Shown in pieces: positions 13,312-21,045 of a stretch of 64,000 bases of DNA. This stretch comes from Thermococcus sp. M39. Its GTDB lineage: Archaea; Methanobacteriota_B; Thermococci; Thermococcales; Thermococcaceae. A model generated the notes under the pieces. That model searched no databases. It was not told where the DNA came from and saw nothing but the letters and a program-made list of their open reading frames with translations. Made by a program: the position numbers and the translations under genes. Location of the stretch: NCBI RefSeq assembly GCF_012027325.1, contig NZ_SNUG01000001.1, forward strand, positions 1-64,000. The letters are read 5' to 3'. Every line of letters begins with the position of its first letter. Position 1 is the first letter of the stretch.

Positions 13312-15630
13312 ATGAAAAGATTTGAGAAAGTATTTGAGCCAAAAGTTGCACTGCCGTTGATAACATTAATTGCTGCAGTTTTCAGATTGATTCCATTGAG
13401 ATACAAGTATCTCTTTGGTTATGATCCTTATTTTCACCTAGCTTACATTGAGGAGAGTTTGAAAGCTGGGTACTGGTTGAAGTTTATTACTTTCGCAAAC
13501 GGTCCATGGGGTGCTAAAGTTTCTCATCCTCTTGGCTTGTATTTGGCTCCGTATTATGTTTATAAATTTCTCTCGGTATTTGGTGTTTCTCTTTATGATG
13601 CGTTCAGAATAACTCCAGTAATTTTTGGAGTTTTTACGATAGTTTTCTTTTATCTGGCTATGCTTAATTTCTACGGGAAAAGAGAGGCTTTCTTTTCGGC
13701 ACTTTTTCTTTCTGTAATGTTTGGACATGTTTTCAGGTCAATGGCAAACTACTACAGGGGAGACAACTACATGCTCTTCTGGTATTCAGTTGCTCTCTTT
13801 GGGATTTCATTAGCAGTTAAACATCAGCGAAGAAAATGGACATATAAAAGACTAATCTTTTATTTAATCCCAGCTTTCGGGAGCGGCTTAGCGTCAATAT
13901 TTTGGCAGGCATATTATCCGATTTTTGTTTTTTTATTGGCAAATGCATTTTTTATTGCACTCTGGGCTTTTTTATTTAGAAAGCAAAAATACTTCGTTGA
14001 TTCTATATTTTTGACAATTTCTACTGCTGCAGGAGTGTTAATCGCTGTAAAGCTTGGTGAATTGTATGGGTATGGTATGCTGTGGGACAGCGGGACATCT
14101 AGAAAGATTGCCAAGGATTTGGGGCTAACTTTAGGTAATATAAAAGACATCTATCTCTGGAGCCATCTTAGGGTTTTGGTTCCATTAGTGCTGGCAGTTA
14201 TCCTAATTTTGTTTGTTCTTAGCAGAATTAAAAGCCTTAAGTTTAGATTATTACTCCTTAGCCTAACTATTTTGGTTAGTGGGGTTGTACTTTTCAAGTT
14301 TCCAAACGAGTATGTCTTGCTATTGAAAGATATTTTAACGGGTTTTGGGATATTATTTAGAAGTAGAAATTACCCAAACCTTGAGATGCGTAAAGTTACT
14401 TTTTCTGATTTATTTGCAGCATATAATATTGTCACGTTTTTGGCTCCCTTCTATCTGTTAAGATTTAGAAAGCCAACTATTGCAGATTTTTTAAATCTTG
14501 GATTAATATTTCCAAGCTTGATCATGATCTACTACTGGACGCGCTTCCTCTTTATTGGCTCGATGGCTGTTGCATTAATGGGAGGTGTTGGATTAATTGC
14601 ATTGTATGATACTTTAGCAACAAGCTTTGAGCCTAGCAGAAGAAAAATGACTGCATTAGGTATTATTTTCTTGGTTTTAATACCTATTACTGCGGGAATT
14701 TTAGGATTTGAGAGAACGTACAAAGAGAGACCGTTTATGAATAAACACTGGGAGGATGCCTTGGTTTATCTTAAGAAAAACTCTAACGAAAATGACGTTG
14801 CTTTAGCCTGGTGGGATTACGGACATTGGATAAGTTACTATGCAAGGAGAGCTCCAGTAGCCCAGGGAGGTGTAAATTCCTTTGTTGCTAGATATTTCCT
14901 TGGACAAGTTGACGACAATCAACTAATGGATAGAGGAGCTGATTATATTATTGTATCTTATGACACAGCAATGAAATTTGGGGCAATTCTAGATACTGCT
15001 AAGGCTGAAAAGAAAGGACATTTTCTAGTGGCCTTACCTTTGACTTCAAGAATTGGTGCTCTAGTATTTGAGCGGGGAGAATATAAAATCGTTGCAAGGC
15101 CTGGAGATACGTGGGAAATTTTAATCCGCAGCAGAAATGCAGTTTTTTCACCTAAAGAGGCATTTTTGGAGTACAAAAAGAACATAACAAAGCTGAAACT
15201 CGAAGGGAAAAAAGTGGCGAATGCATATGTTTACATTAATTTAAACTATGGCTATGCGGTTTTAATGACTGAAAAAACATTCAACACAACTTTAGCTAAA
15301 TTCTTGTTTACGAACGAGTATTCCAAGGACTACAAACCAATTTACTCTGACGGAGGATATATTAAAATCTTCAAATTTATACATCCAAACATTGAGATAA
15401 AAAGAGAGAATTCCACTATTCGTTTTGAAGTAAATGGAGGCAATGAAGAGTACACCCTCTGCATCTCTGGATTTTATGAAAATGGTACAAAAATTTTCAA
15501 TGAATGTGATCCTATAAGCAAAAATAACGTACTTCTTCTTGAACTGAAAATTCCCGAGATTAAGGTTATTAGATACACTCTTCGTGAGAAGAAGAGGGTT
15601 CTAGATGCTGGAGTTTTTAGAGTCAGTTAG
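13312..15630 (+). CDS. aglB: AglB/STT3 oligosaccharyltransferase
   Basis: A 772-aa membrane enzyme that moves a lipid-linked oligosaccharide onto Asn in surface proteins outside the membrane. The first external loop has the metal-binding GYDPYFH (Asp 38), a second acidic site is YYRGDNYMLFWY (about 148), and the hallmark WWDYG is at about 500-504. About a dozen membrane helices precede residue 450, and the rest is a globular extracytoplasmic domain. The start is the ATG at 13312, with AGGTGG 6 nt upstream, not the longer GTG frame from 13216. Length fits the shorter archaeal AglB form. It opens the glycan island, next to dTDP-rhamnose genes, suggesting rhamnose-containing glycans (inference). 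Confidence 0.9.
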   Translation: MKRFEKVFEPKVALPLITLIAAVFRLIPLRYKYLFGYDPYFHLAYIEESLKAGYWLKFITFANGPWGAKVSHPLGLYLAPYYVYKFLSVFGVSLYDAFRITPVIFGVFTIVFFYLAMLNFYGKREAFFSALFLSVMFGHVFRSMANYYRGDNYMLFWYSVALFGISLAVKHQRRKWTYKRLIFYLIPAFGSGLASIFWQAYYPIFVFLLANAFFIALWAFLFRKQKYFVDSIFLTISTAAGVLIAVKLGELYGYGMLWDSGTSRKIAKDLGLTLGNIKDIYLWSHLRVLVPLVLAVILILFVLSRIKSLKFRLLLLSLTILVSGVVLFKFPNEYVLLLKDILTGFGILFRSRNYPNLEMRKVTFSDLFAAYNIVTFLAPFYLLRFRKPTIADFLNLGLIFPSLIMIYYWTRFLFIGSMAVALMGGVGLIALYDTLATSFEPSRRKMTALGIIFLVLIPITAGILGFERTYKERPFMNKHWEDALVYLKKNSNENDVALAWWDYGHWISYYARRAPVAQGGVNSFVARYFLGQVDDNQLMDRGADYIIVSYDTAMKFGAILDTAKAEKKGHFLVALPLTSRIGALVFERGEYKIVARPGDTWEILIRSRNAVFSPKEAFLEYKKNITKLKLEGKKVANAYVYINLNYGYAVLMTEKTFNTTLAKFLFTNEYSKDYKPIYSDGGYIKIFKFIHPNIEIKRENSTIRFEVNGGNEEYTLCISGFYENGTKIFNECDPISKNNVLLLELKIPEIKVIRYTLREKKRVLDAGVFRVS

Positions 15631-15688
15631 ATTAATTAGTAATAACCTTTTTAATTGTGTAGAGTATTACAATAAAGAGGTGTACCTC

Positions 15689-16747
15689 ATGAAGGCGTTA
15701 ATACTTTCTGGTGGACACGGAACTAGGTTGAGGCCTTTGACTTATTCTCAGCAGAAGCAACTGATTCCTGTTGCTAATAAACCGGTTCTCTTCTATGCTA
15801 TTGAGGATGTCATAGAGGCAGGGATTCATGATATTGGAATCATTGTTGGGCCCAACAAGGATCAAGTGATTGAAACTGTAAAAAGCGTCGATTGGGATGC
15901 AGATATTGAATTCATTTATCAGGGAGAGCCGAAAGGTCTTGCACATGCGATAAAAGTTGCGAGGGATTACCTCGGTGATGATGATTTTGTGATGTATCTT
16001 GGTGATAACATCCTTAGGGAAGGCATCGTAAGGCATTTGGAGCATTTTAAAAAGGGCAATTTTGATGCGAGCATCTTGCTCTGTGAGGTTGACAACCCCC
16101 AAAGGTTTGGTGTGGCTGAGCTTAGTGAAGATGGGAAGACGATAAAACGCTTAATAGAAAAGCCAAAAGTTCCCCCGAGCAATTTGGCCTTAGTGGGAAT
16201 TTACTTCTTCAAACCAGTAGTTCATGAAGCAGTTGACAACATAAAACCCTCATGGAGAAATGAGCTTGAAATTACAGATGCAATTCAATGGTTAATTGAT
16301 CACGGCTACAAAGTGGGGTGGACAAAAGTTGAGCACTGGTGGAAAGATACAGGAAAGCCCGAGGACATTTTGGATGCAAACAGATTGATTTTGGATGACA
16401 TCGAGAGGGACATAAGAGTAGAAACTAAGGCAAGAATCATTGGAAGAGTGATTATTGAGGAAGGACCTGAGATTGATGAGAATACCGTTATCAAAGGCCC
16501 AGCGATAATTGGAAAGAACTGTAAGCTCAAAAACGCTTACATTGGGCCTTACACGAGTATAGGCGACAACTGTATAATTGAAAACACAGAGATTGAAGAT
16601 TCTGTGATTTTAGAGGGAGCCGAGATTAGATGCGGCGGAAGGATAGTTGAAAGCTTAATTGGGAGAAATGTGAAGATTTTAGAGCAGAACAATCACCCGA
16701 TTGGAAGAAGATTAATAATTGGAGACAATTCACAACTGACGCTTTGA
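15689..16747 (+). CDS. rmlA: Glucose-1-phosphate thymidylyltransferase, long archaeal form
   Basis: Makes dTDP-glucose from dTTP and glucose 1-phosphate, the first step to dTDP-rhamnose. At the N-terminus ALILSGGHGTRLRPLT is the nucleotide-binding signature, and further on IEKPKVPPSN and the sugar-binding VGIYFFKP are seen. After residue 240, hexapeptide repeats (IGRVIIEEGPEIDENTVI, IIGKNCKLKNAYIGPYTSIG) form a left-handed beta-helix, so this is the long type of 352 aa. The ATG at 15689 is preceded by GAGGTG; the longer frame overlapping aglB lacks support. It is followed by rmlB after 9 nt, in one operon. Confidence 0.9.
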   Translation: MKALILSGGHGTRLRPLTYSQQKQLIPVANKPVLFYAIEDVIEAGIHDIGIIVGPNKDQVIETVKSVDWDADIEFIYQGEPKGLAHAIKVARDYLGDDDFVMYLGDNILREGIVRHLEHFKKGNFDASILLCEVDNPQRFGVAELSEDGKTIKRLIEKPKVPPSNLALVGIYFFKPVVHEAVDNIKPSWRNELEITDAIQWLIDHGYKVGWTKVEHWWKDTGKPEDILDANRLILDDIERDIRVETKARIIGRVIIEEGPEIDENTVIKGPAIIGKNCKLKNAYIGPYTSIGDNCIIENTEIEDSVILEGAEIRCGGRIVESLIGRNVKILEQNNHPIGRRLIIGDNSQLTL

Positions 16748-16756
16748 GGTGAAAGC

Positions 16757-18844
16757 ATGAAAATATTGGTAACTGGTGGTGCAGGATTCATTGGGAGCAA
16801 TTTCATACATTACATTTTAGAAAAGCACGAGGACTGGGAAGTAATAAATTTAGACAAGCTTGGCTACGGTTCAAACTTGGCAAATTTGAAAGATATTGAA
16901 GGCGATGAAAGATACACATTCGTTAAGGGAGATATAAACGATTTTGAGCTTGTCAAGGAGATTATAAAGAAGGTTGATGCTGTTGTGAACTTCGCTGCTG
17001 AGAGTGTTGCAGAAAATGAGTTTGTAGCAATTCATAGGCATGGTAGAATTAGACTTGTTACTTTTGGAGAGTTATTTGAAGAGCTTAGCAAGACTAACAA
17101 AGTAATAAAAGATGGGAAACATGAGATAATTGACGTTTCAGGGAAGAATATCAAGGTGTTGTCATTCTATAACGGTTATGGGGCATGGTTTCCCTTGAAG
17201 AAGGTTATCAGACACTACTACAAAGGAAGACTTCTTTGCTTACGTCAAAAATGGGGAGAAATTTATGTTACTCCAAATCACTCTGTGTATGATGTGTTTG
17301 GGAACCTTGTTAGTGCAGAATCGAATCCTGAGCTTTTGGCAATTAGGAGGATAAACTATTATCCCCACGAACATAAGTTCAAGAGCCATATCTCAGCTCG
17401 TGCTGAGGGAAATGGACACTTAAGGGTAACTCTTGACAAAGTGTATACTGGGAAGAAACTAGAAGCCCTCCTAAGACTGCTCGCTGCTTATATTTCAGAG
17501 GGAAACGCAACCTACAACAAGGCAAATGGGTCATATTCTGTGGTTATAAACAACAGAGACAAAGATTGGCTGAAGCTATTGGCTGAAGATTATATGCTAA
17601 TTTCGAATGGCTCATATTCAATCACAAAACGAAAGGATACTGTTTATCAGTTGGAACTAAAGAGCAAAGAATTTTATCAAATGTGTATAAACCTATGTGG
17701 CAAGAGTGCTCCAGAAAAAAGACTTCCAGATTTTATTTATGGTTTAGATAGAAAATACCAGATGCTATTCTGGGAAACGTTATTGAAAGGAGATGGGACA
17801 TATAGAAAGTGGTCAAGGGACAAAACGGCTGAATACACAACGGTTTCAAGGAGATTAGCGGCAGGTTTGGGTTTGCTCTTGGCGTTGATGGGTATTGATT
17901 ATACCTATTATATAAGTAAACCAAGAAGAGGGAACTACACCTCCTACACGATTAGAACAAGGCTGTTTTATAATGTTTCCACTGGAAAGAGGGAATTAAT
18001 TGAGGTTGAGTACGAGGGTTATGTGTATGACTTAGAAGTTGAGAAGTCCCATAATTTCATCGCCGGTGTTGGAAATATAGTAGCCCACAACACTCATGTG
18101 GATAGAAGCATCTCAAGCCCTTATGCATTTATTGAGAGCAACGTTCTGGGTGTTTACACCGTTTTGGAGGCTATAAGGAAGGAAAACCCGGAGATAAATG
18201 CTGTTTTTGTCTCGACAGATGAGGTATACGGAGATATAATCGAAGGTTCCTTTACTGAAGACGATAGATTAATGCCCTCTTCTCCATATTCGGCAAGCAA
18301 AGTTGCAGGTGATATGTTAGTTTTGGGCTACGCAAGAACTTATAATCTGAATGCTTCGATAACAAGATGCACTAACAACTACGGCCCTTACCAGTTCCCT
18401 GAAAAGCTCATCCCGAAAACAATAATCAGAGCAAGCATGGATCTTAAAATACCAATTTACGGCACAGGCCAAAACGTTAGGGACTGGCTTTACGTTTTGG
18501 ATCACTGTGAGGCAGTTGAGCTTGTCTTAGAAAAAGGCGAGAAGAGAGAAGTTTACAACATTTCAGCTGGAGAAGAGAAGACCAACCTCGAAGTCGTGAA
18601 AACCATCTTAAGGCTTATGGGCAAGGATGAGGATTTAATAGAGTTCGTTGAAGACAGGCCGGGACATGATATACGGTATAGCCTTGATTCAACTAAGATT
18701 AGGGAACAGCTTGGCTGGAAGCCAAAGCACAAGTTCGAAGAAGGAATCAAAAAGACAGTTGAGTGGTATCTGAGCAATGAGTGGTGGAGGCCGTTAGTTA
18801 ATGAGAAAGTTCTCCATCCAACGCCGTGGAAGCTGAGGTGGTAG
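16757..18844 (+). CDS. rmlB: dTDP-glucose 4,6-dehydratase interrupted by an intein
   Basis: The host enzyme turns dTDP-glucose into dTDP-4-keto-6-deoxyglucose. The 695-aa frame is twice the family length because residues 83-445 are an intein. Joined exteins give 332 aa, normal for RmlB: NAD-binding GGAGFIGSN (7-15), the junction AAE|THVDRSI, then STDEVYGD and the catalytic YSASK with Tyr and Lys. The splice point lies inside the conserved AAETHVDRSI helix near the active site, a typical intein position. The ATG at 16757 follows GGTGAAAG, 9 nt after rmlA. Without splicing the enzyme would be dead, so splicing is needed for dTDP-rhamnose synthesis. Confidence 0.92.
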   Translation: MKILVTGGAGFIGSNFIHYILEKHEDWEVINLDKLGYGSNLANLKDIEGDERYTFVKGDINDFELVKEIIKKVDAVVNFAAESVAENEFVAIHRHGRIRLVTFGELFEELSKTNKVIKDGKHEIIDVSGKNIKVLSFYNGYGAWFPLKKVIRHYYKGRLLCLRQKWGEIYVTPNHSVYDVFGNLVSAESNPELLAIRRINYYPHEHKFKSHISARAEGNGHLRVTLDKVYTGKKLEALLRLLAAYISEGNATYNKANGSYSVVINNRDKDWLKLLAEDYMLISNGSYSITKRKDTVYQLELKSKEFYQMCINLCGKSAPEKRLPDFIYGLDRKYQMLFWETLLKGDGTYRKWSRDKTAEYTTVSRRLAAGLGLLLALMGIDYTYYISKPRRGNYTSYTIRTRLFYNVSTGKRELIEVEYEGYVYDLEVEKSHNFIAGVGNIVAHNTHVDRSISSPYAFIESNVLGVYTVLEAIRKENPEINAVFVSTDEVYGDIIEGSFTEDDRLMPSSPYSASKVAGDMLVLGYARTYNLNASITRCTNNYGPYQFPEKLIPKTIIRASMDLKIPIYGTGQNVRDWLYVLDHCEAVELVLEKGEKREVYNISAGEEKTNLEVVKTILRLMGKDEDLIEFVEDRPGHDIRYSLDSTKIREQLGWKPKHKFEEGIKKTVEWYLSNEWWRPLVNEKVLHPTPWKLRW
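17003..18091 (+). other. Intein with LAGLIDADG homing endonuclease in rmlB
   Basis: A 363-aa intein, Ser at its first position and ending His-Asn before Thr of the C-extein. The splicing blocks are visible: block B VTPNHSVYD with Thr and His (about intein residues 90-93), block F EYEGYVYDLEVEKSHNFIAG, and block G NIVAHN. The endonuclease carries two LAGLIDADG-type helices, LLAAYISEGN (near residue 240 of the full frame) and FWETLLKGDGTY (near 345), with acidic residues Glu and Asp in the expected places. Both activities look intact. It would make a double cut at intein-free rmlB alleles and so spread by homing. Confidence 0.92.
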
Positions 18845-19082: not shown

Positions 19083-19263
19083 AATTATCCTTCCTGGTAG
19101 AGTAAAAAAGAGAAAAGTTGGTAAAAAGATAAAGGAATACATTGAAGCTGTTAAAGCCGCAGAGAGGCTGAACAAACTTCTCGATGAGGTGGATCTGGAT
19201 GAAATCGAAAAAGAAGTCGAGGACTTCAGGAAAAAGTTCAAGTTCAGAGGTTCTTCTCATTGA
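19063..19263 (+). CDS. Probable VapB-like antitoxin
   Basis: A 66-aa, Lys- and Glu-rich protein with a basic N-terminus (ILPGRVKKRKVGKK) and a long helix ending in acidic residues (LDEVDLDEIEKEVEDF). This is the layout of an antitoxin with a toxin-wrapping C-terminal helix. GGTGG lies before the ATG. Its 3' part overlaps the start of the PIN toxin by about 65 nt in another frame. The assignment rests mainly on the neighbour. Confidence 0.6.
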   Translation: MKNLKVEIILPGRVKKRKVGKKIKEYIEAVKAAERLNKLLDEVDLDEIEKEVEDFRKKFKFRGSSH

Positions 19264-19615
19264 CACCTCAGTTTTAATTGACCACTTCAAAAAGAGGACA
19301 CATTTAGAGCTCTGGGGAAATGCTATTTCGACGGTCACTCTTTTGGAGTTTTTAAGAGGTGTACCGGGCGAAGAAAGGCGTAAAGCGTTTCTCAGGGAGC
19401 TGCGGAAGCTGTTTAAAATAGAAGAGATTGATGATCCTGTTGTTTTAACGTACTGTAAATTATACCGAGCCTTGAAGCGTAATGGTGAGCTGATTGAAGA
19501 CGCTGATCTTTTGATTGCCGCTACTGCAATCGCTAAAGGTTACACTTTGTGGACTAAAAACATAAGGCATTTTGAACGTTTAGAAAAGTTTGGTTTAAAA
19601 CTTTTTAAAGGATAA
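19199..19615 (+). CDS. vapC: VapC-like PIN-domain toxin
   Basis: A PIN ribonuclease of the toxin type. LLIDTSVLIDHF holds the first Asp, STVTLLEFLRG the Glu, EDADLLIAATAIAKG two further acidic residues, and LWTKNIRHFERL the C-terminal end. All metal-binding positions are present. The ATG at 19199 is preferred because GAGGTGG lies before it; the frame also has an ATG at 19184. It overlaps the antitoxin gene. Such toxins cleave RNA when the antitoxin is lost. The pair is placed within the rml operon, between rmlB and rmlC, only 10 nt before the rmlC start. Confidence 0.8.
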   Translation: MKSKKKSRTSGKSSSSEVLLIDTSVLIDHFKKRTHLELWGNAISTVTLLEFLRGVPGEERRKAFLRELRKLFKIEEIDDPVVLTYCKLYRALKRNGELIEDADLLIAATAIAKGYTLWTKNIRHFERLEKFGLKLFKG

Positions 19616-19625
19616 GGTGGTAGCA

Positions 19626-20183
19626 ATGCCGTTCGAATTCAAAAGGTTGGAAATTCCCGATGTGATTTTAATTAAGCCTAAGGTCTTTGAAGACGAGCGT
19701 GGATTCTTTATGGAGACTTACAAAAAGCCTGACTTTGAAAAAGCTGGAATAAAGGGAGAATTTGTTCAGGATAACCACTCAAAGTCTAAGTATGGTGTTC
19801 TTAGAGGTTTGCACTTTCAGAAGGAGCCTTATGCTCAGGCAAAAATAGTAAGATGTATAAGGGGAGTTATCTATGATGTTGCCGTCGATTTAAGGAAAAA
19901 TTCACCAACATTTGGGAAATACGTAGGAGTTATTCTTTCAGAATTCAATAAATATCAGCTTTACATCCCGAGGGGCTTCGCTCATGGGTTTGTTGTTCTG
20001 AGTGATGTTGCTGAAGTTGTTTATAAGGTGGATAACGTTTATGCTCCGGATTATGAAGGGGGCTTAATATGGAACGACCCGGATGTTAATATTCAGTGGC
20101 CCATTGAGAATCCGATAGTCTCGAAGAAAGATCAAAAACTGCCAACTTTGAGAGAGTTAATTGAGAAGAATGAGCTGTTTTAG
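19626..20183 (+). CDS. rmlC: dTDP-4-dehydrorhamnose 3,5-epimerase
   Basis: Epimerises dTDP-4-keto-6-deoxyglucose at C3 and C5. The cupin fold is shown by KVFEDERGFFMETYK, then VQDNHSKSKYGVLRGLHFQ with the active-site His, YDVAVDLRKNSPTFG with the catalytic Asp partner, and YIPRGFAHGFVVLSD. The length of 185 aa is normal. The ATG at 19626 is preceded by AAGGTGG; a GTG at 19617 lies inside that site. It is followed by rmlD after 10 nt. Confidence 0.92.
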   Translation: MPFEFKRLEIPDVILIKPKVFEDERGFFMETYKKPDFEKAGIKGEFVQDNHSKSKYGVLRGLHFQKEPYAQAKIVRCIRGVIYDVAVDLRKNSPTFGKYVGVILSEFNKYQLYIPRGFAHGFVVLSDVAEVVYKVDNVYAPDYEGGLIWNDPDVNIQWPIENPIVSKKDQKLPTLRELIEKNELF

Positions 20184-20193
20184 GTGATTCAAT

Positions 20194-21045
20194 ATGAAGG
20201 TTGCAATAATTGGAGCAAACGGCCAGTTAGGGACGGATTTAGTTGAAGTCTTTGGGGAAGAAGCAATTCCTTTGACTCATAAAGATTTAGATGTTACTGA
20301 TTTTGAAAGTTTGAAGATTTTGAAAGAACTTAAGCCCGATGTGATAATTAATACAGCCGCGTATGTTAGAGTTGATGATGCTGAACTTTATCCAGAGAAA
20401 GCATTTGCTGTGAATGCAATCGGAGCACTGAATGTCGCAAAAATAGCCAATGGGATTGGTGCTGTTAATGTTTACATCAGCACAGATTACGTTTTTGATG
20501 GAACTAAGGGGGAGCCTTACACTGAGGATGATCTTCCGAATCCGCTGAATGTTTACGGACTGAGCAAATATGCTGGGGAGATTTTCACGAGGAATTATTC
20601 TCCAAAGCACTACATCATCAGGGTTGCCAGTCTTTATGGAAAAGCCGGGGCGAGCGGGAAGGGAGGAAACTTCGTCGAGTGGGTCATCGAGAAGGCGAAG
20701 CGCGGGGAAGAGCTTAAAATTGTGGATGATCAATTTATGAGCCCAACTTATACCAAGGATGTCGCCAGAACTTTGAGAGAGTTTTTAAAGCTGAAGCCAG
20801 AGTTCGGAGTTTACCACATGGTGAACGGAGGATATTGTTCTTGGTATGAATTTACAAGAGCAATATTTGAGATTTTAGGATGGGAGGTTGAAGTGAAGCC
20901 AATAAAATCAAGTGAGCTGAAGAGACTGGCAAAGAGGCCGAGGTTTTCAGCATTGAAGAATGAAAAGCTGGAAAAAATTGGGCTGAAGATGAAACATTGG
21001 AGAGAAGCTTTGGGAGAGTATTTGAAGGAGAAAAGGTATCTCTAG
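20194..21045 (+). CDS. rmlD: dTDP-4-dehydrorhamnose reductase
   Basis: Last step to dTDP-L-rhamnose, an NAD(P)H-dependent reduction. A short-chain-reductase-type Rossmann fold starts with IIGANGQLGTDL. The segment STDYVFDG carries the catalytic Ser/Thr, and NVYGLSKYAGE carries the Tyr and Lys of YxxxK. The 283-aa length is standard. It is the last gene of the rml operon, with the hairpins at 21061-21114 downstream. Confidence 0.92.
   Translation: MKVAIIGANGQLGTDLVEVFGEEAIPLTHKDLDVTDFESLKILKELKPDVIINTAAYVRVDDAELYPEKAFAVNAIGALNVAKIANGIGAVNVYISTDYVFDGTKGEPYTEDDLPNPLNVYGLSKYAGEIFTRNYSPKHYIIRVASLYGKAGASGKGGNFVEWVIEKAKRGEELKIVDDQFMSPTYTKDVARTLREFLKLKPEFGVYHMVNGGYCSWYEFTRAIFEILGWEVEVKPIKSSELKRLAKRPRFSALKNEKLEKIGLKMKHWREALGEYLKEKRYL

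Follow-up and report, generated by a model that had tools for sequence, protein, structure and literature searches.

A homing-type intein in rmlB of Thermococcus sp. M39, an unusual and apparently unreported host gene

The window analysed here, a stretch of 64,000 nucleotides from Thermococcus sp. M39 (assembly GCF_012027325.1, contig NZ_SNUG01000001.1, positions 1 to 64,000), harbors a dTDP-rhamnose gene set made up of rmlA, rmlB and, completing it, rmlC and rmlD. The rmlB reading frame contains an in-frame intein. The features of the locus are as follows.

15605..16747, + strand: rmlA, glucose-1-phosphate thymidylyltransferase, upstream of rmlB (Pfam NTP_transferase, 5.5e-54)
16757-18844, + strand: rmlB open reading frame, 695 aa, no internal stop
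16757..17002, + strand: N-extein, RmlB residues 1-82, ending ...VVNFAAE (TIGR01181 and Epimerase matches; aligned with empty alleles)
17003..18091, + strand: RmlB-a intein, 363 aa, Ser1-Asn363, residues 83-445 of the reading frame (Pfam and NCBIfam profiles, alignments, model and Foldseek)
17003..17368, + strand: N-terminal splicing (HINT) half, residues 1-~122, including block A, SVAENEF (alignments and model)
17270-17281, + strand: codons of block B, TPNH, T90-H93
17450..17956, + strand: LAGLIDADG homing endonuclease, residues ~150-318 (Pfam LAGLIDADG_3; alignment with PI-PkoII and with PolB inteins; I-DmoI fold match)
17498-17500, + strand: codon of E166, the acidic residue of block C, intact
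17792-17794, + strand: codon of D264, the acidic residue of block E, intact
17993..18091, + strand: C-terminal splicing half, residues 331-363, with blocks F and G (YDLEVEKSHNFIAG ... GNIVAHN; TIGR01443, 1.9e-8; alignment and model)
18092..18094, + strand: +1 residue Thr (ACT), compared with empty alleles
18092..18844, + strand: C-extein, RmlB residues 83-332, THVDRSI... and stop (TIGR01181)
19617-20183, + strand: rmlC (Pfam dTDP_sugar_isom, 3.8e-76)
20194-21045, + strand: rmlD (Pfam RmlD_sub_bind, 1.7e-88)

An 804-aa open reading frame further upstream has no Pfam match and carries a WWDYG motif, which we take to be that of STT3/AglB oligosaccharyltransferases. Between rmlB and rmlC lies a gene for a PIN-domain (VapC-like) protein (19184-19615), preceded by small open reading frames that may include an antitoxin; a related rml/glycan cluster on another contig of the assembly (C13) likewise has a PIN-like gene. 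The genome is probably rich in inteins, with 14 LAGLIDADG_3 matches in several long open reading frames on contigs C1, C2 and C3.

Profile searches and alignments agree on the nature and the limits of the rmlB insert. Residues 83-445 match Pfam Intein_splicing (2.8e-11) and LAGLIDADG_3 (6.6e-8) as well as the NCBIfam models intein_Nterm and intein_Cterm, all above curated cut-offs, and the two flanks taken together match TIGR01181, dTDP-glucose 4,6-dehydratase, at 3.7e-149. The first-pass annotation of a full intein with endonuclease within RmlB is thus confirmed, and so, as a prediction, is its spliced product, as the joined flanks give 332 residues that align end to end with an intein-free RmlB of the same assembly. 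At both ends the boundaries agree with the ~30 empty rmlB alleles compared. The insertion point, AAE|THVDRSI, lies within the conserved motif AAE(S/T)HVDRSI; its exact place had been given correctly, whereas the idea of a site near the active site needs qualification. The catalytic residues of RmlB are [ST]DE...Yx3K (PMC8987622), and the RmlB-a site is located off these residues, in a conserved motif.

The insert combines the sequence and fold features of a class 1 intein. Ser1, block B (T90-P-N-H93, corresponding to TxxH) and the terminal pair H362-N363, i.e. the penultimate histidine and the terminal asparagine, are invariant in all five copies found, and to these are added Thr+1, a HINT fold in the model and an in-frame position between rejoinable flanks. 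Two LAGLIDADG motifs with one acidic residue each (E166, D264) are present in four copies, the exception being that of a metagenome-assembled genome (MAG) described below. An AlphaFold2 model of the intein based on 17 sequences reached a pLDDT of 82.6 and a pTM of 0.84; an earlier one from five close sequences (pLDDT 45.6) was discarded. In a Foldseek search of the PDB the best matches of the model were 2cw7 (E 3.5e-21), then TliVMA, PhoVMA, PI-PfuI and PI-SceI, and its endonuclease part matched the fold of I-DmoI.

The closest known structure, 2cw7, is that of the Thermococcus PolB intein PI-PkoII/PI-TkoII, which is also the best PDB match by sequence (E 2.2e-24). It likewise combines HINT with a two-motif LAGLIDADG endonuclease whose acidic residues are Glu (block C) and Asp (block E), a pair that the aligned PolB inteins also have, and both inteins end in AHN. 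PI-PkoII, however, resides in another host gene and is larger (537 aa); a segment of ~120-140 aa separates HINT from endonuclease there and is missing from RmlB-a. PolB inteins of that kind are ~32-35% identical to RmlB-a. The TliVMA and PhoVMA inteins, both composed of HINT and endonuclease, resemble RmlB-a in overall fold (TM 0.72 and 0.67, respectively) and PhoVMA also in size (376 aa). Unlike RmlB-a, they are inserted in the P-loop of the V-ATPase A subunit (VMA-b site) and possess an accessory domain (PMC8966425). The nearest functional precedent is the intein in UDP-glucose 6-dehydrogenase ('udp') of halobacteria and methanogens (PMC4071816); this is also a sugar-nucleotide enzyme but a different one, and its intein is hence not an allele of the RmlB-a site.

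The distribution of RmlB-a is patchy. The same intein occupies the same site in four of 94 Thermococcaceae genomes (G000, which is the assembly of the window, G001, G015 and G028), which fall in three genus groups; rmlB was detected at E <= 1e-60 in 42 of the 94. It was absent from the 115 other genomes searched in the Thermococcus phylum. A fifth copy, 78% identical and at the same site, is located in the own rml cluster of a Nitrososphaeria MAG (L009, JALTTZ010000057); a sample of 398 genomes from that phylum yielded no other full-length match. We considered a mis-binned contig and rejected it; the tetranucleotide profile of the contig resembles those of the other contigs of its bin (0.87-0.91) more closely than that of the window (0.65), and the RmlB it encodes falls outside Thermococcaceae in the tree. 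In this copy (L009:6001-7092) valine replaces the glutamate of block C (E166V) while the splicing motifs are intact, and its endonuclease is probably dead.

On a tree of 46 RmlB sequences from which the intein had been removed, every inteined allele has empty alleles from its own group as neighbors, so that five changes are needed, and a single clade of inteined host genes was rejected (p-AU 2.2e-6). Every inteined pair shows a higher protein identity in the intein than in the extein (for example 95.6 versus 92.5, 86.8 versus 79.8, 78.2 versus 66.3). For the closest pair, G000 and G001, intein dS is 0.23 and host dS 0.84; dS is at or close to saturation in the remaining pairs, for which the argument rests on protein identity and on dN, which is lower in the intein each time. 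Because the inteined hosts do not form one clade and the intein has accumulated far less divergence than its host, it moves horizontally. It has passed from species to species and, it seems, from one archaeal phylum to another. Both of its domains are under purifying selection. In the closest pair dN/dS is 0.028/0.24 for the endonuclease and 0.010/0.21 for the splicing part, low values which, where measurable, indicate that both parts have stayed functional.

All five inteined alleles have threonine at position +1, as opposed to one of 30 empty Thermococcaceae alleles, the other 29 having serine; in the phylum of the Nitrososphaeria MAG most empty alleles examined have threonine. Either the intein needs threonine, or the codon arrived with it from a threonine-bearing donor. 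This pattern is the sole remaining hint of co-conversion, as differences around the insertion site were not clearly lower beside the intein. As a separate observation, a patch of ~130 nucleotides (18145-18275), which begins ~54 nucleotides past the intein, shares no more than 79% identity with any rmlB compared. Its identity to the copy on C13 is 73%, compared with 90% in DNA (95.5% in protein) for the whole gene, and it looks like a conversion from an unsampled donor.

Taking these data together we propose, with high confidence, that rmlB contains a class 1 intein within which a probably working LAGLIDADG homing endonuclease is nested. Translation of rmlB would yield a 695-aa precursor in which an N-to-O acyl shift, aided by the histidine of TPNH, moves the N-extein onto Ser1. 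The chain would then be handed on to Thr+1, Asn363, which adjoins His362, would cyclize, and an O-to-N shift would link ...AAE with THVDRSI... to give the 332-aa RmlB. Freed or still within the precursor, the intein would cleave empty rmlB alleles near the insertion point, and repair of the break from the inteined copy would allow it to spread. Searches of phage and plasmid sequences and of IMG/VR returned no carrier of the intein.

An intein that is spliced but no longer mobile, its endonuclease decaying and its distribution reflecting old transfers and losses, is the strongest competing explanation, though in our view an unlikely one. It would accommodate the E166V copy, as at least one endonuclease then looks dead, and the empty rmlB that remains uncut in the same assembly. 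That allele has several mismatches at the insertion site; either the enzyme does not cut it, or the enzyme is inactive, or the contig stems from another strain. On the other hand, all four Thermococcaceae copies retain E166 and D264, dN/dS of the endonuclease amounts to ~0.05-0.12 where dS is measurable, and the intein dS between G000 and G001, lying far under that of the host, argues for recent movement.

Ordinary recombination moving the gene or the cluster could mimic part of the spread, and the variable glycan clusters that house the host genes, two related ones of which occur in this assembly, would offer an opportunity for it. That transfer of whole rml/glycan clusters without endonuclease homing spread the intein is nevertheless improbable, and clearly more so than loss of mobility. 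Inteined exteins group with the empty alleles of their own kin rather than with one another. In each pair, moreover, the intein has diverged less than the extein, so it travelled apart from most of the host gene; the extein dS of G000 and G001 already speaks against such transfer. Finally, the idea that the insert reflects a fused protein or faulty assembly is refuted for practical purposes, as five separate genomes, three of them assembled in one or two contigs, carry this insert in frame and with every splicing motif, and nothing was found in its support. We thus favor a mobile, homing intein over these explanations.

The assembly contains a second, intein-free rmlB (G000:C13:13257-14258, L059), 95.5% identical in protein and located in the related rml/glycan cluster. 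It may be a paralog or belong to a contig of another strain; the contamination estimate of the assembly is 1.5%. Because this gene is present, splicing is not necessarily required for RmlB supply here, unless C13 comes from another, co-resident strain, and the earlier proposal that sugar-nucleotide supply hinges on splicing is unsupported for this genome. G001, G015 and G028 have no TIGR01181 match besides the inteined gene, and there such a dependence may exist.

A screen for long open frames among the RmlB matches revealed a second insertion site, VHIS|TDEVYGD, between a conserved serine and threonine. Inteins of 505-518 aa (RmlB-b) occupy it in four genomes, two from Thermococcaceae (G075, G059) and two from the phylum of the Nitrososphaeria MAG (G365, G913); the loci are L120:790-3309, L121:3-2438, L122:780-3350 and L126 (reading frame of 856 aa). 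They share with RmlB-a the host protein and both phylum-level groups but differ from it in site and larger size, interrupt the catalytic [ST]DE motif (as defined in PMC8987622) and are only 27-28% identical to the intein of the window. Since this second, unrelated site exists, RmlB is a repeated intein target. Other inteins came to light as well. One, in an archaeal phosphoglucosamine mutase (GlmM; L073:772-3462), has the serine of TASHNP as its +1 residue and represents another case in sugar-precursor metabolism; two more, from genomes that belong to the same phylum as the Nitrososphaeria MAG, interrupt V-ATPase subunit B (L069:619-3153) and an anaerobic ribonucleotide reductase (L070:175-3696).

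We found no entry for an RmlB intein or its insertion site in open papers, NCBIfam or the PDB, with intein databases, UniProt and subscription papers lying outside the search; NCBIfam includes dedicated models for Tes and GyrA with inteins, but the scan showed none for RmlB. Within these sources nothing contradicts the suggestion of a new insertion site in the first-pass annotation, and RmlB appears to be a new host gene, with two new sites, that harbors elements of a familiar type. What we describe is a real feature of an ordinary sort: an intein of the homing type whose host is unusual and, as it seems, unreported. As a long shot, RmlB might be hit repeatedly in hyperthermophilic archaea because of its place in exchangeable surface-glycan clusters; cuts made by the endonuclease might provoke recombination that swaps neighboring glycan genes, the intein thus driving glycan diversity, or splicing might gate rhamnose supply by temperature.

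Our analysis adds an intein host gene outside replication, with two separate insertion sites and a distribution extending into a second archaeal phylum. RmlB-a is probably a heat-adapted Ser1/Thr+1 intein devoid of a large accessory domain, and its inteined and empty alleles of known relatedness constitute a clean natural test set for homing in hyperthermophiles. Where the inteined rmlB is the only copy, synthesis of surface sugars would need protein splicing.
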